From the NCBI GenBank assembly GCA_024650095.1, contig JANKMV010000051.1:1-10425 (forward strand): DNA of 10,425 bases, written 5' to 3'. The stretch is from Bacillota bacterium (GTDB lineage: Bacteria; Bacillota; Dethiobacteria; Dethiobacterales; Dethiobacteraceae). Position numbers and translations under genes: made by a program. Below the pieces are notes generated by a model. It saw nothing but the letters and a program-made list of their open reading frames with translations, did no database searches and was not told the DNA's origin. Shown piece after piece: positions 2,202 through 10,367 of this stretch (position 1 is its first letter; every line of letters begins with the position of its first letter).

Positions 2202-2296
2202 AGCATATGATTATTGGGGTATGGATAGCATGATACTTTACCATATCAGGCTTAAGATGAGAGATAGAATGAATTGCATAGCAAGGTGAGGTTCTG

Positions 2297-2386
2297 AGGA
2301 GGAAGATAAAAATGTTAAAAATACTAGGAATTATAATAATATCGATCTTGTTTATAGCAGTTATTATTTTTTTTTTGCACTTATGA
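2297..2386 (+). other. Membrane-anchor leader ORF out of frame with hydrolase
   Basis: A strong RBS (GAGGAGG, 2297-2303) precedes ATG 2312. The frame encodes a 24-residue peptide, MLKILGIIIISILFIAV followed by hydrophobic residues, which is a classic uncleaved membrane anchor. It ends at TGA 2384-2386. That stop overlaps the hydrolase ATG (2383-2385) as ATGA. One extra T, or two fewer, in the T10 run at 2367-2376 would fuse this anchor directly to the hydrolase, giving a protein of about 319 aa. Alpha/beta hydrolases of this kind commonly carry such an N-terminal anchor, so this is most likely the true 5' end of the gene. Confidence 0.75.
2367..2376 (+). repeat. T10 homopolymer at the frame break
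   Basis: Ten consecutive T lie inside the anchor-coding sequence, exactly where the frame is lost. Tracts of this length are prone to replication and transcription slippage and also to sequencing miscounts. Confidence 0.9.
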
Positions 2387-3270
2387 TTAATCATAATAAT
2401 CAATTAAAAGAAGAGGCTAAAGAATACCCGCCACCAGGCAGAATTGTTGAATTAAATGATAAAAAGCTACATGTATACACAGAAGGTGAAGGAGATATTA
2501 CACTTGTTTTTATGGCTGGGCACGGCACCAGTAATCCGACATTGGATTTTAAGCCCTTATGGATGAGGATGATAGATGAATACAGGATTGCAGTAGTAGA
2601 GAAATCAGGTTATGGCTGGAGTGACACATCGTATAGTCCAAGAGATATTGATACTATGCTTGAGGAAACCAGGAAGGTACTGGAGCTTTCGGGGGAGAAG
2701 GCTCCATATGTACTCTTTCCGCATTCAATGTCGGGGTTAGAGGCACTATATTGGGCTAAAAAATATCCTGATGAAGTAAAAGCAATTATTGGCTTGGATC
2801 CATGTACACCTGAAACGATTGACCTAATTCCTGAACCTCAAAAAATACAGCTAAGTTTTATGTATTTTATATCAAGAATAGGTCTACCTAGATTTATGCC
2901 GGAATCTGAAGTAGGTGAAAACTTGCCTCTGATGAAATCAAATGAACTATCAGAAGAAGATAAAAATCAATATTTGGCTGCTTTTTACAAAAGTGCTTTC
3001 ACAAAAGATATGTTAAGAGAAATTCATTATATGAAAGAGAATGCCGACACAGTAGCAAAAAATGAGGTTCCTATCAACACTCCCATGTACTTTTTTATTT
3101 CCGATGACCAAGAGGCAAGCGCAAGTCGTTGGAAAGAAGCATTATCGGATTATCTTTCCAAGATTACTATTGGAAAGAATATGCAGCTTGCTACTGGTCA
3201 TTATGTCCATTATGATAAAGCAGAAATAATTGCTGAAGGGGCTAAAGCCTTTCTTGAAGATATATTGTAA
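2383..3270 (+). CDS. Alpha/beta hydrolase, probably membrane-anchored when in frame
   Basis: The 295-aa frame shows the alpha/beta-hydrolase fold in order: a beta hairpin (VELNDKKLHVYTEGEGD, about residues 22-38), the oxyanion-hole strand FMAGHGTSNPTLDF (43-56), VEKSGYGWSD (72-81), and the nucleophile elbow FPHSMSGLEALYWAKKYP (112-129) with Ser115 as probable nucleophile. A likely catalytic His lies in the C-terminal GHYVHYDKAEII (His273 or His276), and an acid near SDDQE (240-244). The GxSxG first Gly is His, as is common in HSMSG/HSMGG members. Substrate cannot be told; esterase, lipase or related hydrolase activity is expected. The ATG at 2383 has no RBS of its own, and the proper start appears to be 2312, in another frame. 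The gene is AT-rich and followed by a terminator. Confidence 0.85.
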   Translation: MINHNNQLKEEAKEYPPPGRIVELNDKKLHVYTEGEGDITLVFMAGHGTSNPTLDFKPLWMRMIDEYRIAVVEKSGYGWSDTSYSPRDIDTMLEETRKVLELSGEKAPYVLFPHSMSGLEALYWAKKYPDEVKAIIGLDPCTPETIDLIPEPQKIQLSFMYFISRIGLPRFMPESEVGENLPLMKSNELSEEDKNQYLAAFYKSAFTKDMLREIHYMKENADTVAKNEVPINTPMYFFISDDQEASASRWKEALSDYLSKITIGKNMQLATGHYVHYDKAEIIAEGAKAFLEDIL

Positions 3271-3499: not shown

Positions 3500-4318
3500 C
3501 TACTCCGTTAAATCTTGACCGCGGGAAATTAGTAGTGTCAAACTAAAGAATAACAATGCCCACAATAACAAGCCTACGACTGCATATCCATTTGCCAGCA
3601 GTGCGGAATTCTCAGCGATTGCAGATGTGTTGCTGATCAACCAATTGGAATTTGCAAGACTGTTGGCCATTTGCCGGGGTAGGAATTTTAAGATTTCTAT
3701 TTTTTCTCCAAGGAGCTGGCAGACTAGGTTCTCCAGCAAGGCGAAGGCCGCTCCGCCGCCAAAGGTTGCTGCCAGTGAACGGGTGGCTACAGCCAAGAAA
3801 AGGGTGATGCTGGCATAGGGAAGGAAACTATAGGCAGTTCGCAACACGCCAAGCAAAACTTGAATTAAGTTAATCTCGCTATAGTTGATCGTTCCCTTAA
3901 GCATCAAGGTAAAATATGCTGTCACTGGCGAGCTGGCTAGGATGGGTAATGCCGCGATCAGTAGAAATGGCAGGATTAACGCTGTTGTTTTAGCAGTCCA
4001 CAGGGTTGGGCGTTTTAAGCCCCTGCTTAACCAGAGGCGCATGGTACCAAGACTATAATCCTGGCAAGCCACCGTTGCTGTGAGCAGAACCACAATAAAA
4101 ATCCCCAGTTGGTCAGCATGCTGCAGGGCGGCAACCAGGGAGAAAGGCCAAGTAATCGCCGCAATATCGCCGGAGATTAGCGTTTCACCTGCTTGTTGGC
4201 TAAAGTAAAGCCCAGCGAACATGATCAGGGATATCCCTGTCAGTATGATCAGAGCAACCCAGAATAGACTTCTTTTAAAAACTTTCCGATGCTCATTTAC
4301 GACAATTCCCCAGAACAT
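3500..4318 (-). CDS. ABC-2 type transporter permease
   Basis: The 272-aa protein begins MFWGIVVNEHRKVFKRSLFW, the usual start of ABC-2 permeases in which a short cytoplasmic amphipathic piece precedes TM1. About six hydrophobic segments are visible, near residues 19-39, 71-88, 110-130, 153-175, 180-203 and 246-265, with a characteristic QDYSLGTMRLWLSRG loop after TM2. Its ATG shares one base with the stop of the upstream ATPase (TGATG), so the two are translationally coupled and almost surely form one exporter, two ATPases with two permeases. The neighbouring two-component system suggests the substrate is linked to what the kinase senses, for example an antimicrobial peptide or bacitracin-like compound, but substrate is inference only. 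Confidence 0.88.
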   Translation of the reverse strand: MFWGIVVNEHRKVFKRSLFWVALIILTGISLIMFAGLYFSQQAGETLISGDIAAITWPFSLVAALQHADQLGIFIVVLLTATVACQDYSLGTMRLWLSRGLKRPTLWTAKTTALILPFLLIAALPILASSPVTAYFTLMLKGTINYSEINLIQVLLGVLRTAYSFLPYASITLFLAVATRSLAATFGGGAAFALLENLVCQLLGEKIEILKFLPRQMANSLANSNWLISNTSAIAENSALLANGYAVVGLLLWALLFFSLTLLISRGQDLTE

Positions 4319-5229
4319 CAGCTATCAGCACCTTTCTTTGTGATTTCCATAAATAAACTCTCAAGATCTGTCTGGTCGGTGGATACGCTGCTGGGAATAA
4401 TACCCCGATCCACAAGAAAAGCTACCACCTCTTCAGCTGAAACCCCGCTGACCGCCACATCATTCCCTTGTACTACTTCTGCTGAACTGACCCCTTCAAG
4501 GTCGCGTAGCATGGTTGCAGCTATTTCAGGTGATGGCACCCTTACCAGAGTAGCAGCGGGTCTTTCCAGCAGCTTAGCAACATTACCCTCAGCTACGACG
4601 GTCCCATGGTTTAGGACAGCAACCCGATCGCAGATCTGCTCCACTTCATGGAGCATATGACTGCTGAGGAAAACAGTGGTCCCGTCATCTGCAAGGGTTC
4701 GCAGCAGGTTTCGCACCTCCCTCATGCCTGCAGGGTCGAGCCCGTTGGTGGGCTCATCCAAAATCAGCAGCTTCGGTCTGTCTAGCAGCGCTCCGCCTAA
4801 AGCCAATCTCTGCTTCATTCCCATAGAGTAGCTGCTCACCTTGCGTTGGCCGGCCGGCTCTAAACCTACCTGAGCTAGCACTTCCTTGATGCGGCCTTTG
4901 CCGACGATACCGTGAATTCTGGCAAGCATAAGCAGATTTTCCTCTCCAGACAAATAGGGCACAAAGCCATGTTGACCAAGCATCGCCCCCACCTGATTCA
5001 AAGGCCCATTTTGCCTTGGGGTTACCGCTTCGCCCATGATTCTCACTTCTCCCCTGGTAGCATGGATCAAACCCAGAATCATACCGATGCTGGTTGTCTT
5101 GCCCGATCCGTTGGGTCCCAGGAAACCGTAAATCTGTCCTCTGCCAACCGACAAATTGACATCACTTACTGCAGTTATGTCTTTATAACGCTTGGTAAGC
5201 TGTCTGATTTCCAAAACTATTTCAGACAT
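4318..5229 (-). CDS. ABC transporter ATP-binding protein, BcrA-like
   Basis: All the ABC ATPase motifs are visible in the 303 aa: Walker A GPNGSGKT (38-45), Q-loop MLGQHGFVPYLSG (83-95), signature SYSMGMKQRL (133-142), Walker B LLILDEP (154-160), D-loop GLDP (163-166) and H-loop SSH (189-191). The YSMGMKQ form of the signature and the C-terminal extension of about 85 residues (LVRVPSPEIAATMLRDL...) are typical of the BcrA/DrrA-type exporter ATPases. The start at ATG 5229-5227 follows AAGGAGG. A 9-bp inverted repeat lies directly against this RBS. The stop overlaps the permease start by one base. The likely role is powering export or detoxification at the membrane, with the permease encoded next to it. 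Confidence 0.93.
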   Translation of the reverse strand: MSEIVLEIRQLTKRYKDITAVSDVNLSVGRGQIYGFLGPNGSGKTTSIGMILGLIHATRGEVRIMGEAVTPRQNGPLNQVGAMLGQHGFVPYLSGEENLLMLARIHGIVGKGRIKEVLAQVGLEPAGQRKVSSYSMGMKQRLALGGALLDRPKLLILDEPTNGLDPAGMREVRNLLRTLADDGTTVFLSSHMLHEVEQICDRVAVLNHGTVVAEGNVAKLLERPAATLVRVPSPEIAATMLRDLEGVSSAEVVQGNDVAVSGVSAEEVVAFLVDRGIIPSSVSTDQTDLESLFMEITKKGADS

Positions 5230-5235
5230 TCTATA

Positions 5236-5270
5236 ACCTCCTTCTATGCTTTTCTTAAAGCATAGGGCAT
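5236..5270 (-). promoter_or_regulatory. Hairpin abutting the ATPase RBS, with a mini-ORF
   Basis: On the minus strand CTATGCTTT and AAAGCATAG form a perfect 9-bp stem with a 4-nt loop (5244-5265), and AAGGAGG follows at once. An 8-codon reading frame (ATG at 5270-5268, MPYALRKA, stop at 5246-5244) spans the hairpin exactly. It has only a weak AAGG upstream, so translation is uncertain. The hairpin could set ATPase translation or protect the 5' end of a processed mRNA. Confidence 0.45.
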
Positions 5271-5283
5271 GAACCTTACATCC

Positions 5284-5329
5284 ACATTACAGGGACATAA
5301 ACATAAATTACTGCCTAAATAACATTACA
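5284..5329 (-). repeat. Pair of 8-bp direct repeats upstream of ATPase
   Basis: ACATTACA occurs at 5284-5291 and again at 5322-5329, 38 bp apart, in the gap between kinase and ATPase. OmpR-type regulators bind direct repeats, so these may be regulator sites for a separate ATPase promoter, but no convincing -35/-10 pair is seen. Confidence 0.25.
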
Positions 5330-5340
5330 CGAACCCCAGT

Positions 5341-5375
5341 ACATAGAAACTGCCCCCAGACCTTAAGGAGGCAGT
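5341..5375 (-). terminator. Weak terminator or attenuator between kinase and ATPase
   Basis: On the minus strand ACTGCCTCC pairs with GGGGGCAGT (5349-5375), nine pairs with one T-G wobble and a 9-nt loop. Only TTTCTATGT follows. It probably lowers read-through from the kinase into the ABC genes and so separates their levels. Confidence 0.45.
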
Positions 5376-5394
5376 GTAACTGGATAGGTTATGT

Positions 5395-6828
5395 CTATTC
5401 AATGACAATGGGGATAGTAAACCAGAAAAGTGCGCCGCCGCCAGGGCTACTGTCCACACCAATTTCGCCGCCATGGCGTTGAATAATTTCTTTGCAGATT
5501 GCCAAGCCGAGGCCGCTGCCCCCGCTGGAACTGTTCCTGGCCAAATCTCCCCGGAAAAAGCGTTCAAAAACTCGATTTCTATCTTCAGGGGCCACACCCT
5601 GACCGCCATCAGCAACATCCACTCTGAACCAGCCTCGAAGACGGGACACTTTTACACCGATCCACAAACCTTGGCTCCCATAATTGACAGCATTGGTGAG
5701 CAGATTATCCAGCACCCGCTCAATTTTCCCGGGCACTAGTTCTGCCCAAAGGGCTTGGTCAGGTATCTCCACATCTACGGTGAACCCCTTCTCTTCCAGA
5801 CTGGGCAGGAAACTAATGACAGTCTGGCGCACTACTTCCGTCAGGTTCAGCCGCTTAGTCTGCCAAGCCTCGGAGGTACCGGCTTCCAGGGAAATGAGCT
5901 CAAACAAGTTATCTATCAATCCTTTTAGCATAAGCCCTTTATCATGGATTACAGAAATTGACTGGGATGGTTTCTCGGCAATGCCGTCTTTAAGTAATTC
6001 GGCATGGGCTAACAGGGCTGTTAAGGGTGTGCGCAGGTCATGGGATGCGGCCGCGGCTAGATAGCGTCGAGTTCCATCGGCAATCTCTGCTTCTTCTTTA
6101 GCTTGTTGGAGCTTTGCAGCCATAATATTTACATCCCGTTCCAGCTGTCCTATTTCGTCTGTCCTTTTGCTTTCATTAATCCGAGCGCGGAAATCACCCG
6201 CAGCCAAACGGGCCATTACGGCAGAGACTCGCCGTACAGGTGCAACAAGATGATGGCCAAAAAACCAGAAGAGAAGCAGGCTTGTGATTAAAGCCAGCAG
6301 GGGAACGGAAAAAAAAGCAAAGGGAATCAGTCGCGAGGCTGGGGTTTTTTCCAGGGCAAGCACAGGCTGTTTGAGCTTCAGTACATAGTACCCCCACATC
6401 TCTCCATCCCGGGTCAGGGGGTAAGTCAATGCACGCATTCCCACCTGCCCCTCCGAAGGAGGAAGCCAATGTAAAATCTCTGTTGATGTAAGAACTCGAC
6501 CTGGATTGTCATTGCTGGCGGCCCAAACCGTGCCCTTCATGTCAATGATCTGGACTTGTTCATCCGGGTCCAGTTCCGTGGGCAGGGCAACCGCTTCCAG
6601 CGCTTCTTGGTCCCTGCCGTCATTCAACACCTCCTGGACTGCAGTTGCCCGTTCCCTGACCAAGACTTGCGCACGGATCAATTCTCTAATCCCGTAACTG
6701 TCATGGTTGTAGACGATTAAGAACAAGACAGAAAAAATCAGCGCCGTCAACAAAATCGCCAATAAGACAGTGCCGATGAAGGTTAGCACCAGCTTCTTCC
6801 GGACAGAAAACTTTATAATTTTTTTCAA
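5395..6828 (-). CDS. Sensor histidine kinase (HAMP-HisKA-HATPase)
   Basis: I place the start at TTG 6828-6826 (477 aa). It lies four bases after the regulator stop, with GGAAGGGG correctly placed upstream; a GTG at 6867 gives 490 aa but lacks an RBS. Order: basic N-terminus, TM1 (about 14-40), an extracytoplasmic sensor part of about 125 residues, TM2 (167-190), HAMP (191-243, ending in DEIGQLERDVNIMA), HisKA with phospho-acceptor His263 in ASHDLRTPLTALLAHAE, N box DNLLTNAVNYG (374-384), DGGQGV G1 box (from 407) and GGSGLGLAIC G2 box (436-445). The sensor part is larger than in BceS-type intramembrane kinases, so it may read a ligand directly. It pairs with the response regulator just upstream, and the ABC exporter downstream is the likely target. 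Confidence 0.93.
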   Translation of the reverse strand: MKKIIKFSVRKKLVLTFIGTVLLAILLTALIFSVLFLIVYNHDSYGIRELIRAQVLVRERATAVQEVLNDGRDQEALEAVALPTELDPDEQVQIIDMKGTVWAASNDNPGRVLTSTEILHWLPPSEGQVGMRALTYPLTRDGEMWGYYVLKLKQPVLALEKTPASRLIPFAFFSVPLLALITSLLLFWFFGHHLVAPVRRVSAVMARLAAGDFRARINESKRTDEIGQLERDVNIMAAKLQQAKEEAEIADGTRRYLAAAASHDLRTPLTALLAHAELLKDGIAEKPSQSISVIHDKGLMLKGLIDNLFELISLEAGTSEAWQTKRLNLTEVVRQTVISFLPSLEEKGFTVDVEIPDQALWAELVPGKIERVLDNLLTNAVNYGSQGLWIGVKVSRLRGWFRVDVADGGQGVAPEDRNRVFERFFRGDLARNSSSGGSGLGLAICKEIIQRHGGEIGVDSSPGGGALFWFTIPIVIE

Positions 6829-6832
6829 CTGC

Positions 6833-7540
6833 CTAACCCCTTCCACCGAAGCGATAACCCAGTCCACGTACTGTCTTTAAGAGCTTGGGAGCAGAGGGGT
6901 CTTCCTCGATTTTTTCCCTCAGGCGCCTAATGTGTACAGTAACGGTGTTATCATCACCAAAAAAATCTTCTCCCCAAACCTGGCTGAAAATCTGTTCCCT
7001 GGTCAATACTCTGCCTCTATTTAAAGTAAAGTACTGCAAGAGCTCAAACTCCTTCGCAGTAAGGCTCAATGATTCGTCATTGAGCCAAACTTGGCAGGCA
7101 GCGAAGTCGACTTCCAAGCCGCCAATTTTGAGATGCTCTTCTGGGAAAAACTGTGCCCCTCCTGGATAATCGCGATACCTGCGCAGGTGGGCCTTTACAC
7201 GTGCCGTTAAAGCGACCCTGGAAAAGGGTTTGACTATGTAATCATCAGCCCCTAAACCCAAACCCAGTACCTGGTCAACATCGTCACCCCGGGCAGTCAA
7301 GAATAAAATGGGAACATTGATGCCGCTCATCCGCGCCCTGCGGCAGACCTCAAATCCGTCCAGGGATGGAAGCATTATATCAAGCAGCACCAAGTCCCAA
7401 CGGAAATTATTTAGTTCCTCTAGTGCGTCCTTTCCATTGGAAACCCATCCCGTGGCTATGCCTTCCCTTTTCAGGTACTCGCTAATGGCGTCAGCAATAT
7501 CCTTTTCATCTTCAACTATCAAAACCCGTGCCGAAGTCAT
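6833..7540 (-). CDS. OmpR-family response regulator
   Basis: The chosen start is ATG 7540-7538 (235 aa), eight bases after AAGGGG. The GTG at 7549 lies too close to that RBS. The receiver domain (about 5-120) shows the acidic pair in VEDEKD, the phospho-acceptor Asp54 in LVLLDIMLPSLDGFEV, the Thr in FLTARGDD and the conserved Lys in DDYIVKPF. The winged-helix DNA-binding domain (about 137-232) shows LTAKEFELLQYFTLNRGRVL and the recognition region VTVHIRRLREKI, ending in VRGLGYRF. All are textbook OmpR/PhoB features. It is first in the leftward operon and, once phosphorylated by the adjacent kinase, should control its own operon and perhaps the ABC genes. Confidence 0.95.
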   Translation of the reverse strand: MTSARVLIVEDEKDIADAISEYLKREGIATGWVSNGKDALEELNNFRWDLVLLDIMLPSLDGFEVCRRARMSGINVPILFLTARGDDVDQVLGLGLGADDYIVKPFSRVALTARVKAHLRRYRDYPGGAQFFPEEHLKIGGLEVDFAACQVWLNDESLSLTAKEFELLQYFTLNRGRVLTREQIFSQVWGEDFFGDDNTVTVHIRRLREKIEEDPSAPKLLKTVRGLGYRFGGRG

Positions 7541-7568
7541 ATTAACCACCCCTTATCGAAAGACTAAT

Positions 7569-8501: not shown

Positions 8502-8561
8502 TGAGTGTTACGTGATTTTATCGCTCCGTGGGAACAAGTCCGAAGTCGTGATTTTGAACGC

Positions 8562-8608
8562 GACAGAGCGATTTAGATGTCATAGTCTGGAGAGTGGTCG
8601 GCATCATG
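8562..8608 (+). repeat. Dispersed 40-bp element, copy 2
   Basis: It reads GACAGAGCGATTTAGATGTC, then CTGGAGAGTGGTCGG, ending in the ATG of the HhH gene. Aligned to copy 1 with a few 1-nt gaps it matches at most positions. It provides whatever RBS the following gene uses. Confidence 0.5.
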
Positions 8609-9229
8609 AAATATACACTGGATTTGGAGCTTCTGTCTGTCCAAGAATACAAAACACTGCTGAAGCAACAAAATCTGCTGCCGGGTCGCAGAATTCTTTG
8701 GCAGGACATTGATGAAAATTTTGCCGTATTTGAAAGCAGGAAAATTAAAACCGTCGCACAACTGAAAAAAAGCCTTTCTACTCCCGCCAAAATTGCGGAT
8801 ATCGAAGTGGCGAGTGGCATACCTGAGGAATATCTGGTGATTTTGAAGAGAGAAATTGGTAGTCTGGAGCAAAAGCCCGTCCCGCTTTCAGGTTTTCCCA
8901 GCATTGGTCCCTCGCTAGTTGCAAAGTTGGGCAGCGCCGGTCTGAAAACATCAAAAGAGTATTGGGAGACAAAACAAGACTTGTCAGACGAGCTGTTTTG
9001 CCTTTGCGACCTTGTTCGGATAAACGGCGTGGGTCCCGTCGCCGCAAGAGCGTTTTATGAAGCCGGATATCGGTCGGTTTACGACGTTGCCGCAGCGGAC
9101 GCGGCGGTTATGCTGAAGAAGGTCTCCGCAGTCAACGAAGCCCAGCGCTATTATAAGGCGAATCTGGGGCTAAAAGATATGCAATTTTGTATTGATTTCG
9201 CAAAGTTGCTTAGAGATATGGGCGTATAA
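8606..9229 (+). CDS. Helix-hairpin-helix protein, DUF4332-like
   Basis: I choose ATG 8606 (207 aa) over GTG 8594, because GGAG at 8589-8592 is too close to the GTG; it is rather far (13 nt) from the ATG, so the start is uncertain. The protein carries two helix-hairpin-helix-like units: FPSIGPSLVAKLGSAGLKT (about 97-115) and LVRINGVGPVAARAFYEAGY (about 136-155). This matches DUF4332-type proteins with paired HhH motifs, which are thought to bind DNA without sequence specificity or to serve as a scaffold. The N-terminal 90 residues are helical and Lys-rich (LSVQEYKTLLKQQNLLPGRR). The frame is intact and codon use is more GC-rich than in the AraC remnant before it, which suggests a separate origin. 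Repeat copies flank both sides. Confidence 0.75.
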   Translation: MKYTLDLELLSVQEYKTLLKQQNLLPGRRILWQDIDENFAVFESRKIKTVAQLKKSLSTPAKIADIEVASGIPEEYLVILKREIGSLEQKPVPLSGFPSIGPSLVAKLGSAGLKTSKEYWETKQDLSDELFCLCDLVRINGVGPVAARAFYEAGYRSVYDVAAADAAVMLKKVSAVNEAQRYYKANLGLKDMQFCIDFAKLLRDMGV

Positions 9230-9241
9230 TTAACGGGAAAC

Positions 9242-9289
9242 CGAGTGGTAAGGTTGGATGTCAGCAAGTTTGCGAAAGGTCGATTTAGA
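9242..9289 (+). repeat. Dispersed 40-bp element, copy 3
   Basis: AGGTTGGATGTCAGCAAGTT followed by TGCGAAAGGTCGATTTAGA (9251-9289) aligns with AGATTGGATATC...GGCGAGTAGTCGATTTAGA of copy 1 with one gap. It begins just after the HhH gene. Confidence 0.5.
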
Positions 9290-9316
9290 ATTTTTTCAAA
9301 TTTTACGAGGTTGAAT

Positions 9317-9350
9317 GAGCAGGTTGGATGTGGGCGTTTCTGGCTGCTCA
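9317..9350 (+). repeat. Dispersed element, partial copy 4
   Basis: GAGCAGGTTGGATGTGGGCG matches GAGCAGATTGGATATCGGTG of copy 1. GAGCAG (9317-9322) and CTGCTC (9344-9349) make this copy a small inverted repeat. Confidence 0.4.
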
Positions 9351-9408
9351 AGGCATGACATAAGAGATGATTTGTTTTAGGCGAAGGGGAAAGCGGTCGT
9401 TAACATAG

Positions 9409-9437
9409 TTGACTATAGCGATCATACATAATATTAT
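9409..9437 (+). promoter_or_regulatory. Sigma-A promoter for the methyltransferase
   Basis: TTGACT (9409-9414) and TATTAT (9432-9437) are separated by 17 bp, each matching five of six consensus bases. Transcription should start near 9444, giving a leader of about 150 nt. Confidence 0.65.
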
Positions 9438-9460
9438 AAGATAGCTCCATAAGCTTATTA

Positions 9461-9478
9461 CTCCTAAATTATCAGGAG
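9461..9478 (+). other. Possible hairpin hiding the leader RBS
   Basis: CTCCT (9461-9465) can pair with AGGAG (9474-9478), the core of the leader peptide's RBS, around an 8-nt loop. The stem is short, so stability is doubtful. Confidence 0.3.
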
Positions 9479-9483
9479 GGTTT

Positions 9484-9540
9484 ATGAACACAAAATTTGG
9501 TACACGAGAGTCCGTATTATTGCCGGGGGCATGGCAGTAA
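9484..9540 (+). CDS. 18-aa putative leader peptide
   Basis: AGGAGGG (9474-9480) precedes ATG 9484, and the frame MNTKFGTRESVLLPGAWQ ends at TAA 9538-9540. The strong RBS four bases before the ATG, the placement between a good promoter and the methyltransferase, and the overlap of its last codons with a terminator stem all point to a regulatory leader peptide. I recognise no known leader sequence. It could instead be the start of a decayed gene, though no continuation is seen in other frames. Confidence 0.55.
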   Translation: MNTKFGTRESVLLPGAWQ

Positions 9541-9569
9541 TATAGCCGCCTCCGGTACTATTTTTATTT
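9521..9569 (+). terminator. Attenuator-like terminator in the methyltransferase leader
   Basis: TGCCGGGGGC (9521-9530) pairs with GCCTCCGGTA (9548-9557), ten pairs including two G-U, around a 17-nt loop. CTATTTTTATTT follows. The 5' arm lies in the codons for Leu-Pro-Gly-Ala of the leader peptide, so a ribosome stalled or ending there would open the hairpin and let transcription continue. Confidence 0.6.
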
Positions 9570-9585
9570 CTTAAAAATAGGGAGG
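9558..9585 (+). promoter_or_regulatory. Second leader hairpin abutting the methyltransferase RBS
   Basis: CTATTTTTA (9558-9566) and TAAAAATAG (9572-9580) form a perfect 9-bp stem with a 5-nt loop. The RBS GGGAGG begins at its last base. Its 5' arm is the U tract of the terminator, so the two structures may influence each other. Confidence 0.5.
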
Positions 9586-9593
9586 TAAAAATA

Positions 9594-10307
9594 TTGTATA
9601 AATATCATCGCACAGAAAAGTATGATAAGCTCTTTTTATCGCAAAATTTCATGGGTCCAAACGCAGTGCTTATGCTTGACGAGATTACCCAAAGTATTGA
9701 AATCAGCAAGGGAATGCGTGTTTTAGATCTGGGCTGCGGCAAGGGGTTAACGTCAGTGTTTCTGGCTAAAGAATACGGCGTACAAACATTTGCAGTTGAT
9801 TTATGGATTACAGCTGCCGATAACTATAAGCGTTTTCTGCATATGGGTGTGGATGACTTGGTTGTTCCTATCCATGCCGACGCAACGGTGGAGCTGCCTT
9901 TTGCAGATGAGTACTTCGATGCATTAATAAGCGTTGATTCCTACCACTATTACGGAAACAACGATGACTATTTTGAGAAGCGTTTGAAATCGCTGATTAA
10001 AAAAGGCGCACCGGTTGCAATTGCTATTCCCGGCACAAAGCATGAAATGAACGGTATCATACCTGATGCGTTAAAGCCGTTTTTAGACGACGAGGGTTTT
10101 GCCACATTGCATTGCATTGAATGGTGGACGCAAATTTTTGAAAAGCATTTAGACGACTTCTCGATTAAGGAAATGGAATGTACCGACACAGCGTGGAGTG
10201 ATTGGCTTGCTACCGATAATCCAATTGCAAAGCAGGATATAGATATGATGAAACCCGATAACGGCAAGTATCTGAATCTTATCTCGATAACTGGAAAAAG
10301 AAAATAA
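9594..10307 (+). CDS. Class I SAM-dependent methyltransferase
   Basis: TTG 9594 is placed eight bases after GGGAGG and gives 237 aa. The Rossmann-like fold is clear: motif I VLDLGCGKGLTSVFLA (43-58) binds the methionine part of SAM, FAVDLW (66-71) has the acidic residue after strand 2, HADATVELPFADEYFDALIS (94-113) covers motifs II and III, and LIKKGAPVAIAIPG (134-147) is the next helix and strand. It resembles the UbiE/Methyltransf_11-25 type rather than Erm or RsmA rRNA dimethylases, whose NPPY motif is absent. Small-molecule or lipid methylation is therefore more likely than rRNA methylation, but the substrate is unknown. It has its own promoter, a regulated-looking leader, and a strong terminator, so it is monocistronic. 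Confidence 0.88.
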   Translation: MYKYHRTEKYDKLFLSQNFMGPNAVLMLDEITQSIEISKGMRVLDLGCGKGLTSVFLAKEYGVQTFAVDLWITAADNYKRFLHMGVDDLVVPIHADATVELPFADEYFDALISVDSYHYYGNNDDYFEKRLKSLIKKGAPVAIAIPGTKHEMNGIIPDALKPFLDDEGFATLHCIEWWTQIFEKHLDDFSIKEMECTDTAWSDWLATDNPIAKQDIDMMKPDNGKYLNLISITGKRK

Positions 10308-10316
10308 CAATAAAAA

Positions 10317-10367
10317 CAAAACGAGGCATCCTACGTTCAAATTCGTAGTGTGCCTTGTTTGTTTTTA
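10317..10367 (+). terminator. Bidirectional terminator between convergent genes
   Basis: AGGCA-TC-CTACG (10324-10335) pairs with CGTAG-TG-TGCCT (10344-10355), interrupted by a 2-nt internal mismatch, with an 8-nt loop. TGTTTGTTTTT follows on the plus strand and GTTTTGTTTTTATTG on the minus strand. Confidence 0.85.

Follow-up and report, generated by a model that had tools for sequence, protein, structure and literature searches.

A leader frame ending within two exclusive hairpins as a probable ribosome-mediated attenuator of a Bacillota methyltransferase gene

The gene for a class I SAM-dependent methyltransferase in a Bacillota genome (G000) is preceded by an 18-codon leader frame that ends within two mutually exclusive hairpins, which is the usual anatomy of an attenuator. 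The combination that marks ribosome-mediated transcription attenuators as a kind, a translatable frame ending in an exclusive terminator and antiterminator, was found in the DNA that we analyzed (10,425 nucleotides, referred to as the window), and we consider it probable that the leader is such an attenuator, induced by stalling late in the frame. Leader-peptide attenuation of this methyltransferase had been proposed in a sequence-only reading of the same DNA; our analysis adds to that proposal the exclusive hairpins, a second genome with the same leader and ribosome-type attenuators ahead of related genes, and overall supports it only in part.

The leader and its two competing hairpins

Along the DNA, the promoter is followed by a Shine-Dalgarno sequence, the 18-codon frame, a GC-rich hairpin, a U tract, the methyltransferase Shine-Dalgarno sequence and a TTG start codon (Table 1), and the elements named in the sequence-only reading, namely promoter, 18-residue frame with ribosome binding site (RBS), GC-rich hairpin and U tract, were all found present. 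Taken alone, the promoter match does not exceed chance (one in the region versus a shuffle mean of 3.3); transcription would start near position 9444. Among 600 dinucleotide shuffles of positions 9230-9593, a frame of 8-40 codons with a Shine-Dalgarno sequence arose in 97, and neither a terminator of -15 kcal/mol or lower with a T tract nor a frame overlapping such a terminator arose in any. The fold of 9440-9600 (-47.4, z -3.64) was equalled in one of 200 shuffles. In the window, the leader Shine-Dalgarno sequence is predicted to be paired by a hairpin that is lost in the corresponding locus of genome G321 (L093).

Table 1. Positions of the leader and gene features in the window and of mini-ORF elements at other loci
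Feature	Position	Strand	Detail
Sigma-70-like promoter	9409-9437	+	TTGACT 9409-9414, 17 nt spacing, TATTAT 9432-9437; hexamers match 10/12
Leader Shine-Dalgarno	9474-9480	+	AGGAGGG
Leader frame, 18 codons	9484-9540	+	MNTKFGTRESVLLPGAWQ; ATG 9484, TAA 9538-9540
12-bp alternative hairpin (antiterminator or pause hairpin)	9514-9543	+	arms 9514-9525/9532-9543
Intrinsic terminator hairpin	9521-9557	+	arms 9521-9530/9548-9557, inner 9533-9535/9545-9547
U tract	9558-9570	+	CTATTTTTATTTC; kept in L093
U-tract alternative hairpins	9558-9593	+	9558-9580 (9 bp, RBS free) or 9559-9572/9580-9593 (14 bp, RBS covered)
Methyltransferase Shine-Dalgarno	9580-9585	+	GGGAGG
Class I SAM-dependent methyltransferase gene	9594-10307	+	237 aa; TTG start 9594 (ATG in L093)
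Mini-ORF attenuator before RsgA-like gene, L119	1501-1629	-	
Mini-ORF attenuator before RsgA-like gene, L120	1501-1629	+	
Mini-ORF attenuator before RsgA-like gene, L122	1501-1628	-	
Type A mini-ORF element, L002	1243-1458		G000:C99
Type A mini-ORF element, other loci			L029, L040, L043, L045, L046, L051, L056, L097, L098, L100, L101

The terminator hairpin (-22.0 kcal/mol, z -3.82) was matched by none of 200 shuffles. A simple terminator scan listed none at the leader (0 versus a shuffle mean of 1.3), a miss that we think is due to the 9-nt inner loop of the hairpin and the CTA ahead of the T run. The rival 12-bp hairpin, which an earlier reading of the locus had overlooked, is made of the RNA of codons 11-18 and the stop codon, to just beyond the stop, and is transcribed earlier than the 3' arm of the terminator (-14.0 kcal/mol for 9514-9546, z -5.13, 0 of 200 shuffles). 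As the two hairpins have bases in common, they are mutually exclusive. Folded without a ribosome, the window RNA forms the terminator with a probability of 0.95 when it ends at 9557, 0.13 at 9569 and 0.93 at 9593, and the L093 RNA with 0.96-0.97 at all five lengths tested. The window RNA is tipped to the alternative by an outer pairing of about 9499-9510 with the 3' arm of the terminator; this pairing loses one pair in L093 and may therefore be accidental. Because the equilibrium at the window's U tract (9569) favours the antiterminator, against a terminator probability of 0.97 in L093, basal termination is uncertain.

The effect of a translating ribosome was modelled by masking a footprint of assumed size, which reaches 14 nt upstream and 15 nt downstream of the first base of the P-site codon, at 19 of 19 codons in the window and 13 of 19 in L093. 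In both RNAs, the terminator probability was 0.86-0.98 with the P site at codons 1-8, 0.69-0.70 at codon 9, 0.01-0.30 at codon 10 and 0.00 at codons 11-19, apart from 0.04 at the stop codon of L093. According to this folding, RNA polymerase would therefore pass when a ribosome is stopped in the frame's second half or on the stop codon, and a drug that keeps the ribosome at codon 1 would leave the window's terminator intact.

The mechanism that we propose starts from the nascent RNA of codons 11-18 and the stop codon, which would fold as the 12-bp hairpin, or the core of which would pair downstream as the terminator, the two being exclusive by prediction. As long as the second half of the frame is free of ribosomes, the terminator could form and many transcripts would end in the U tract. 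A P site held at about codons 10-19 would, in the model, cover bases of both hairpins and block the terminator, and RNA polymerase would then continue into the methyltransferase gene. The inducer would be a drug, we infer, and the likeliest candidate is an inhibitor of the ribosome that halts elongation in the late codons or at the stop; the enzyme may then be part of a translation-stress response and act on the ribosome, on a factor of translation or on the drug itself. On inspection, the 18-residue peptide has no recognisable stalling motif, and the RLR motif of erm/hflXr-type macrolide leaders is absent from it.

The sequence-only reading had also described a second, 9-bp hairpin on the U tract. 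It exists (-6.2, with the closing C-G pair lost in L093) but is only one of two pairings, since two copies of TAAAAATA flank the methyltransferase Shine-Dalgarno sequence and the U tract is able to pair with either; the full-leader prediction prefers the 14-bp pairing that covers the RBS. The predicted probability of an unpaired methyltransferase RBS without a ribosome is 0.04 in the window and 0.20 in L093, and across the ribosome positions it is 0.00-0.09 (all positions in the window) and 0.18-0.20 (L093). If real, an RBS covered at every ribosome position tested would call for a further step and would speak against a simple on-switch; the pairing may be a translational layer or AT-rich noise.

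The methyltransferase and the close relatives of its locus

The enzyme matches Methyltransf_25 (2.6e-10) and Methyltransf_11 (5.3e-10), with all methyltransferase models below the NCBIfam cut-offs and some above general Pfam cut-offs, and the closest solved chains are distant (3bus_A, 3.9e-11). That it is not Erm-like, as stated in the sequence-only reading, holds true: RrnaAD scores 19.3 bits, below the cut-off of 24. The range of homologues takes in archaea, Chloroflexota, Pseudomonadota and others, which suggests transfer. Among 72,556 plasmid records two match the enzyme, at 43% and 36% identity, and viral contigs gave only eight weak or short matches to it; at the DNA level, 9400-10307 had no match in plasmids and 9400-9620 none in phages.

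While 17 of the 398 genomes of our phylum sample contain a homologue at E <= 1e-55, close homologues besides the window's own were found there only in G321 (92% identity, L093) and G111 (90%, L094). The same three genomes (G000, G321, G111) were the only ones with the close gene in scans of 19 genomes of the family, the 398 of the phylum sample, 97 of the class and 5 of the order of G111. From at least 419 relatives 80 loci were kept, and among the matches listed only L005 (90%) and L014 (82%, truncated by the contig end inside the methyltransferase gene) exceed 60% identity. Further homologues, at 76-89% identity (P0001-P0014), are encoded on metagenome contigs.

Over window positions 9377-10356, the L093 DNA is 93.7% identical in alignment, with differing flanks before 9377, and promoter, frame, both hairpins and U tract all recur in it; both promoter hexamers are the same in sequence. 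Its leader frame encodes MNTKYSTRESVLLPGAWQ, with 2 changes in 57 bases, and its methyltransferase gene is 94.8% identical (17 synonymous and 19 other changed codons of 237), so that no better conservation of the leader than of the gene can be measured; the two known leaders are too alike for a conservation test. The changes fit the structures in part: one G-U pair of the terminator becomes G-C, the 12-bp hairpin is shortened to 11 bp with one pair becoming U-G, and two other hairpin features are lost.

The third locus is arranged differently. L094 and L005 agree in their upstream DNA. The match of L005 to the window begins at 9571, and ahead of that point L005 matches 9242-9331 and 8519-8599. 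L005 thus has none of window positions 9332-9570, which hold promoter, frame and terminator, and it follows that a locus can keep the gene without the leader. The expectation that homologous loci keep the leader is therefore borne out in two of the three distinct loci that have upstream DNA and 90% or more enzyme identity, the window included, but fails in the one that has neither promoter, frame nor terminator. A leader-core pattern matched two of the 398 genomes (G000 and G321), with no match of the reversed control among the matches listed. In a peptide-motif scan of 92 loci, L093 not among them, no copy of the leader turned up apart from the window's own, and the outer homologues are accordingly without a window-type leader. 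A single leader-core match in a viral contig (L114) was dismissed as chance, as neither a start with a Shine-Dalgarno sequence nor a hairpin with a U tract nor such a frame was seen there.

Repeat-like DNA (GATTTAGATGTC, GGTTGGATGT) is common to window positions 8519-8599 and 9242-9331, L005 2798-2958 and L106 1266-1305. These repeats flank the window frame 8594-9229 and in L005 lie directly before the leaderless gene; they are perhaps the ends of a mobile element. Elsewhere in the window, genes for a response regulator, a histidine kinase, an ABC ATPase and a probable permease stand in a row on the reverse strand (3500-7549), which looks like a drug-sensing transport operon; the best models for the ATPase are of the DrrA and lantibiotic-protection types, below cut-off.

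A mini-ORF element ahead of distant homologues

In many of the distant homologues (38-46% identity), a conserved element lies some 170-330 nt upstream of the start codon; it is composed of a Shine-Dalgarno-like stretch at near-constant spacing, a mini-ORF, paired regions and mostly a terminator. The mini-ORF is mostly of five codons and mostly encodes M-x-[VI]-[VI]-L-stop; it starts at the same place with ATG in type A (ATG TCG GTN ... CTG TAA, mostly MSVIL) and with TTG in type B (TTG NNN ... GTT CTG TAA; MDIVL, MEIVL, MAIVL, MELVL, MESVL and others), stops with TAA or TAG, and in L053 is short by exactly three bases (MPVL). Among the 99 loci in which 150 nt or more of upstream DNA was available, 29 carry the element with duplicates included (17 type B, 12 type A); L112, L113, L005 and L111 repeat others, and the distinct loci are 16 of type B and 12 of type A. 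The type A loci, listed by start sequence among loci picked by eye, include the window genome's own second homologue (L002, 44% identity) and a locus of the culturable Sporomusa silvacetica DSM 10669 (L045).

The structure for the alignment of 16 type B sequences was drawn up from a single member (L103). Pairing of the end of the mini-ORF with UACAGAA further downstream, taken together with the terminator, gives 87.9% paired cells (0 of 500 shuffles; slid controls 35-55%), with 11 of 17 pairs changed on both sides (0 of 500) and further pair types (5 of 500). In the rival pairing, the segment that follows UACAGAA pairs with the terminator's 5' arm; this gives 73.4% paired cells (0 of 500; slid controls 23-46%) and 5 of 8 pairs changed on both sides; it is less certain than the first set, because 23 of 500 shuffles do as well on the latter count and one slid control has 6 such pairs. 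Type B thereby shows the same logic of anti-antiterminator, antiterminator and terminator as vmlR, in the portions of the source available to us (PMC9226507).

A covariance model built from type B (R1) places four of the six type A loci given at E < 0.001 (L045 at 8e-6, L002 at 9e-5, L056 and L029), finds L040 at 0.012 and does not find L051, so that types A and B look like one family. The type A model (R2) finds L002 at 2e-31, having been built partly from it. R1 matches in 12 of the 398 genomes: seven before a methyltransferase gene, most of these in the model or its relatives, three before an RsgA-like GTPase gene and outside the model (G079, G271, G382), and two unconvincing (G045 and G400). 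Not taken as attenuators of a known gene were these two, the match in G045 lying inside a long frame that by eye looks like phosphate acetyltransferase and the one in G400 being partial, and a reverse-strand shadow in G390. R2 matches in six genomes of the sample, five times before a methyltransferase gene and once near a contig end (G366); this last was not counted either, as the contig ends shortly after its MSVSR mini-ORF. At that locus (L133, G366:C42), the type A-like element is followed by unfamiliar structured-looking DNA.

The window leader does not belong to this element: R1 reached at best 0.1 bits in 9200-9700 with filters off, so that a mini-ORF model covering the leader was rejected, and a whole-genome search with R2 found nothing in contig C466, which holds the window. 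A stalling motif common to leader and mini-ORFs (ESVL, in the window leader and in the MESVL of L059) was also discarded, being a single tetrapeptide match and the mini-ORF ending being explained by the pairing of UUCUGUA. At Rfam gathering scores, the upstream elements of 14 loci (12 with the element or its gene family) were unmatched, the only matches, to c-di-GMP-I and tRNA, lying elsewhere. In a tree of 94 homologues with 200 bootstrap trees, types being counted against other labelled rows, type A forms one group in 100% of the bootstrap trees, type B needs two changes, and both window-type leaders and L094 sit on a separate branch. As unlabelled rows are interspersed with those of A and B, some members of the family are without the elements. 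L042, L048 and L095 have a similar strong terminator about 100 nt upstream of the methyltransferase gene, varying around CGACATGG...CCGTGTCG and then a T run, with no mini-ORF found before the gene; this is possibly a further attenuator type. Judged by its covariation and position, the mini-ORF element would lend independent support to ribosome-sensing control of the methyltransferase family.

The three RsgA-like proteins under the element score 151-166 bits on TIGR00157 (cut-off 100); in L119 the mini-ORF stop is displaced and the frame longer. An RsgA-like gene also lies immediately upstream of the methyltransferase gene in L057 (1904-2992), where no attenuator was seen between the two. In L095, the methyltransferase gene is followed within 200 nt by the gene for an ANT(9) spectinomycin nucleotidyltransferase (2270-3055; 397 bits, cut-off 340). 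As the look-up covered a chosen sample of eight proteins, seven of 55 neighbour frames and the L120 GTPase, and was not a survey, the ANT(9) and RsgA neighbours are leads. Weak neighbours, below cut-off, are methyltransferase-like (L034, L072), a class A beta-lactamase (L042) and TadA (L104), and the L096 neighbour protein had no match; in L034 (3037-3735), the second methyltransferase-like gene comes straight after the attenuated one. The RsgA-like GTPase under a mini-ORF attenuator and the ANT(9) neighbour hint, indirectly and from the family only, at drug induction, and the family as a whole shows hints of induction by translation inhibitors. We tentatively suggest, as a possibility that we would not yet favour, that the MGPN-motif methyltransferases are an unrecognised, horizontally mobile and inducible translation-stress or resistance family under at least two unrelated ribosome-sensing attenuators, one of which also stands over an RsgA-like GTPase, so that methyltransferase and small-subunit ribosome factor would form one antibiotic-inducible response.

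Alternative readings and comparison with known systems

Stalling late in the frame could also arise from a scarce tRNA (Leu UUA/UUG, Trp, Pro, Arg CGA), in which case the leader would sense an amino acid or charged tRNA and switch the gene on as in biosynthetic operons. The hairpin logic would be identical, and Leu-Leu, Pro and Trp are among the late codons. The peptide, however, has at most two Leu in a row and no run of one amino acid as in amino-acid operon leaders, confirming the sequence-only reading on this point; the product shows no link to amino-acid synthesis, and the mini-ORFs of the relatives are too short for codon counting, all of which makes this reading improbable. Alternatively, the locus might be unregulated, with a short transcript ending at its own terminator, a frame that is chance or an unrelated peptide, and a methyltransferase expressed by read-through. 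The shuffle frequency of Shine-Dalgarno frames alone, the leaderless gene of L094/L005 and a leader identity not above that of the gene would all agree with this, yet the frame ends in two overlapping exclusive hairpins that are each beyond shuffles and the complete set recurs in L093, and we regard the absence of regulation as rather unlikely. Very unlikely is a switch of RNA alone, in which a ligand or protein would select the hairpin and translation of the frame would be incidental: ribosome-free, the window states are indeed close in energy (-36.8 for RNA ending by 9563; -37.6 from 9566), but L093 is not bistable and keeps Shine-Dalgarno sequence, start and stop, and the leader (9440-9600) has no match in Rfam 15 up to E = 1, a search that gave two weak matches elsewhere in the window.

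Taken as a ribosome-mediated attenuator, the leader is not of the Erm, ABC-F or amino-acid-operon type of control. In the attenuators of erm genes, a leader peptide likewise precedes a methyltransferase gene; the enzyme in the window differs in not being Erm, and its switch would act first on transcription. In the open-licence literature, combinations of leader, uORF, attenuation, methyltransferase and RsgA returned no description of the present elements, and four peptide strings had no match.

The following comparisons refer to the portions of the published sources available to us. Closest in design is the rli80 leader of hflXr (lmo0762) in Listeria, a 14-residue frame with an RLR motif ahead of the gene for a ribosome-splitting factor (PMC6310831); the window leader resembles it in frame length, alternative terminator and antiterminator folds and transcription attenuation, and departs from it in having no RLR and a methyltransferase gene instead. 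The vmlR and cplR attenuators of ABC-F genes have uORFs of 3-4 codons (PMC9226507, PMC10201436). Terminator and antiterminator are common to them and the window leader, and the distant homologues share with them also an anti-antiterminator with a very short uORF; in contrast, the window gene is not ABC-F (Methyltransf_25/11) and its frame has 18 codons, and as its terminator is unopened by a ribosome at codon 1, the window leader is separate from the short ABC-F uORFs. The uORFC-6-1 motif before hflX, a structured uORF thought to sense stalled ribosomes (PMC8632094), is alike by description, as a structured uORF before a ribosome-linked gene, although the gene is another. The smtA motif precedes a class I methyltransferase gene, is unusually long and lies between the divergent smtA and purH (PMC11109978); in the part of that source available to us it is not called a uORF, and it is set apart from the present elements by description, although it could be the same. 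The genes under the ribosome-sensing attenuators of vmlR, cplR and hflXr proved to be resistance or rescue factors (PMC9226507, PMC10201436, PMC6310831). An enzyme family carrying such switches in different designs is thus a testable candidate for an inducible translation-inhibitor response in anaerobic bacteria, and its mini-ORF element would make drug-inducible genes findable across genomes.
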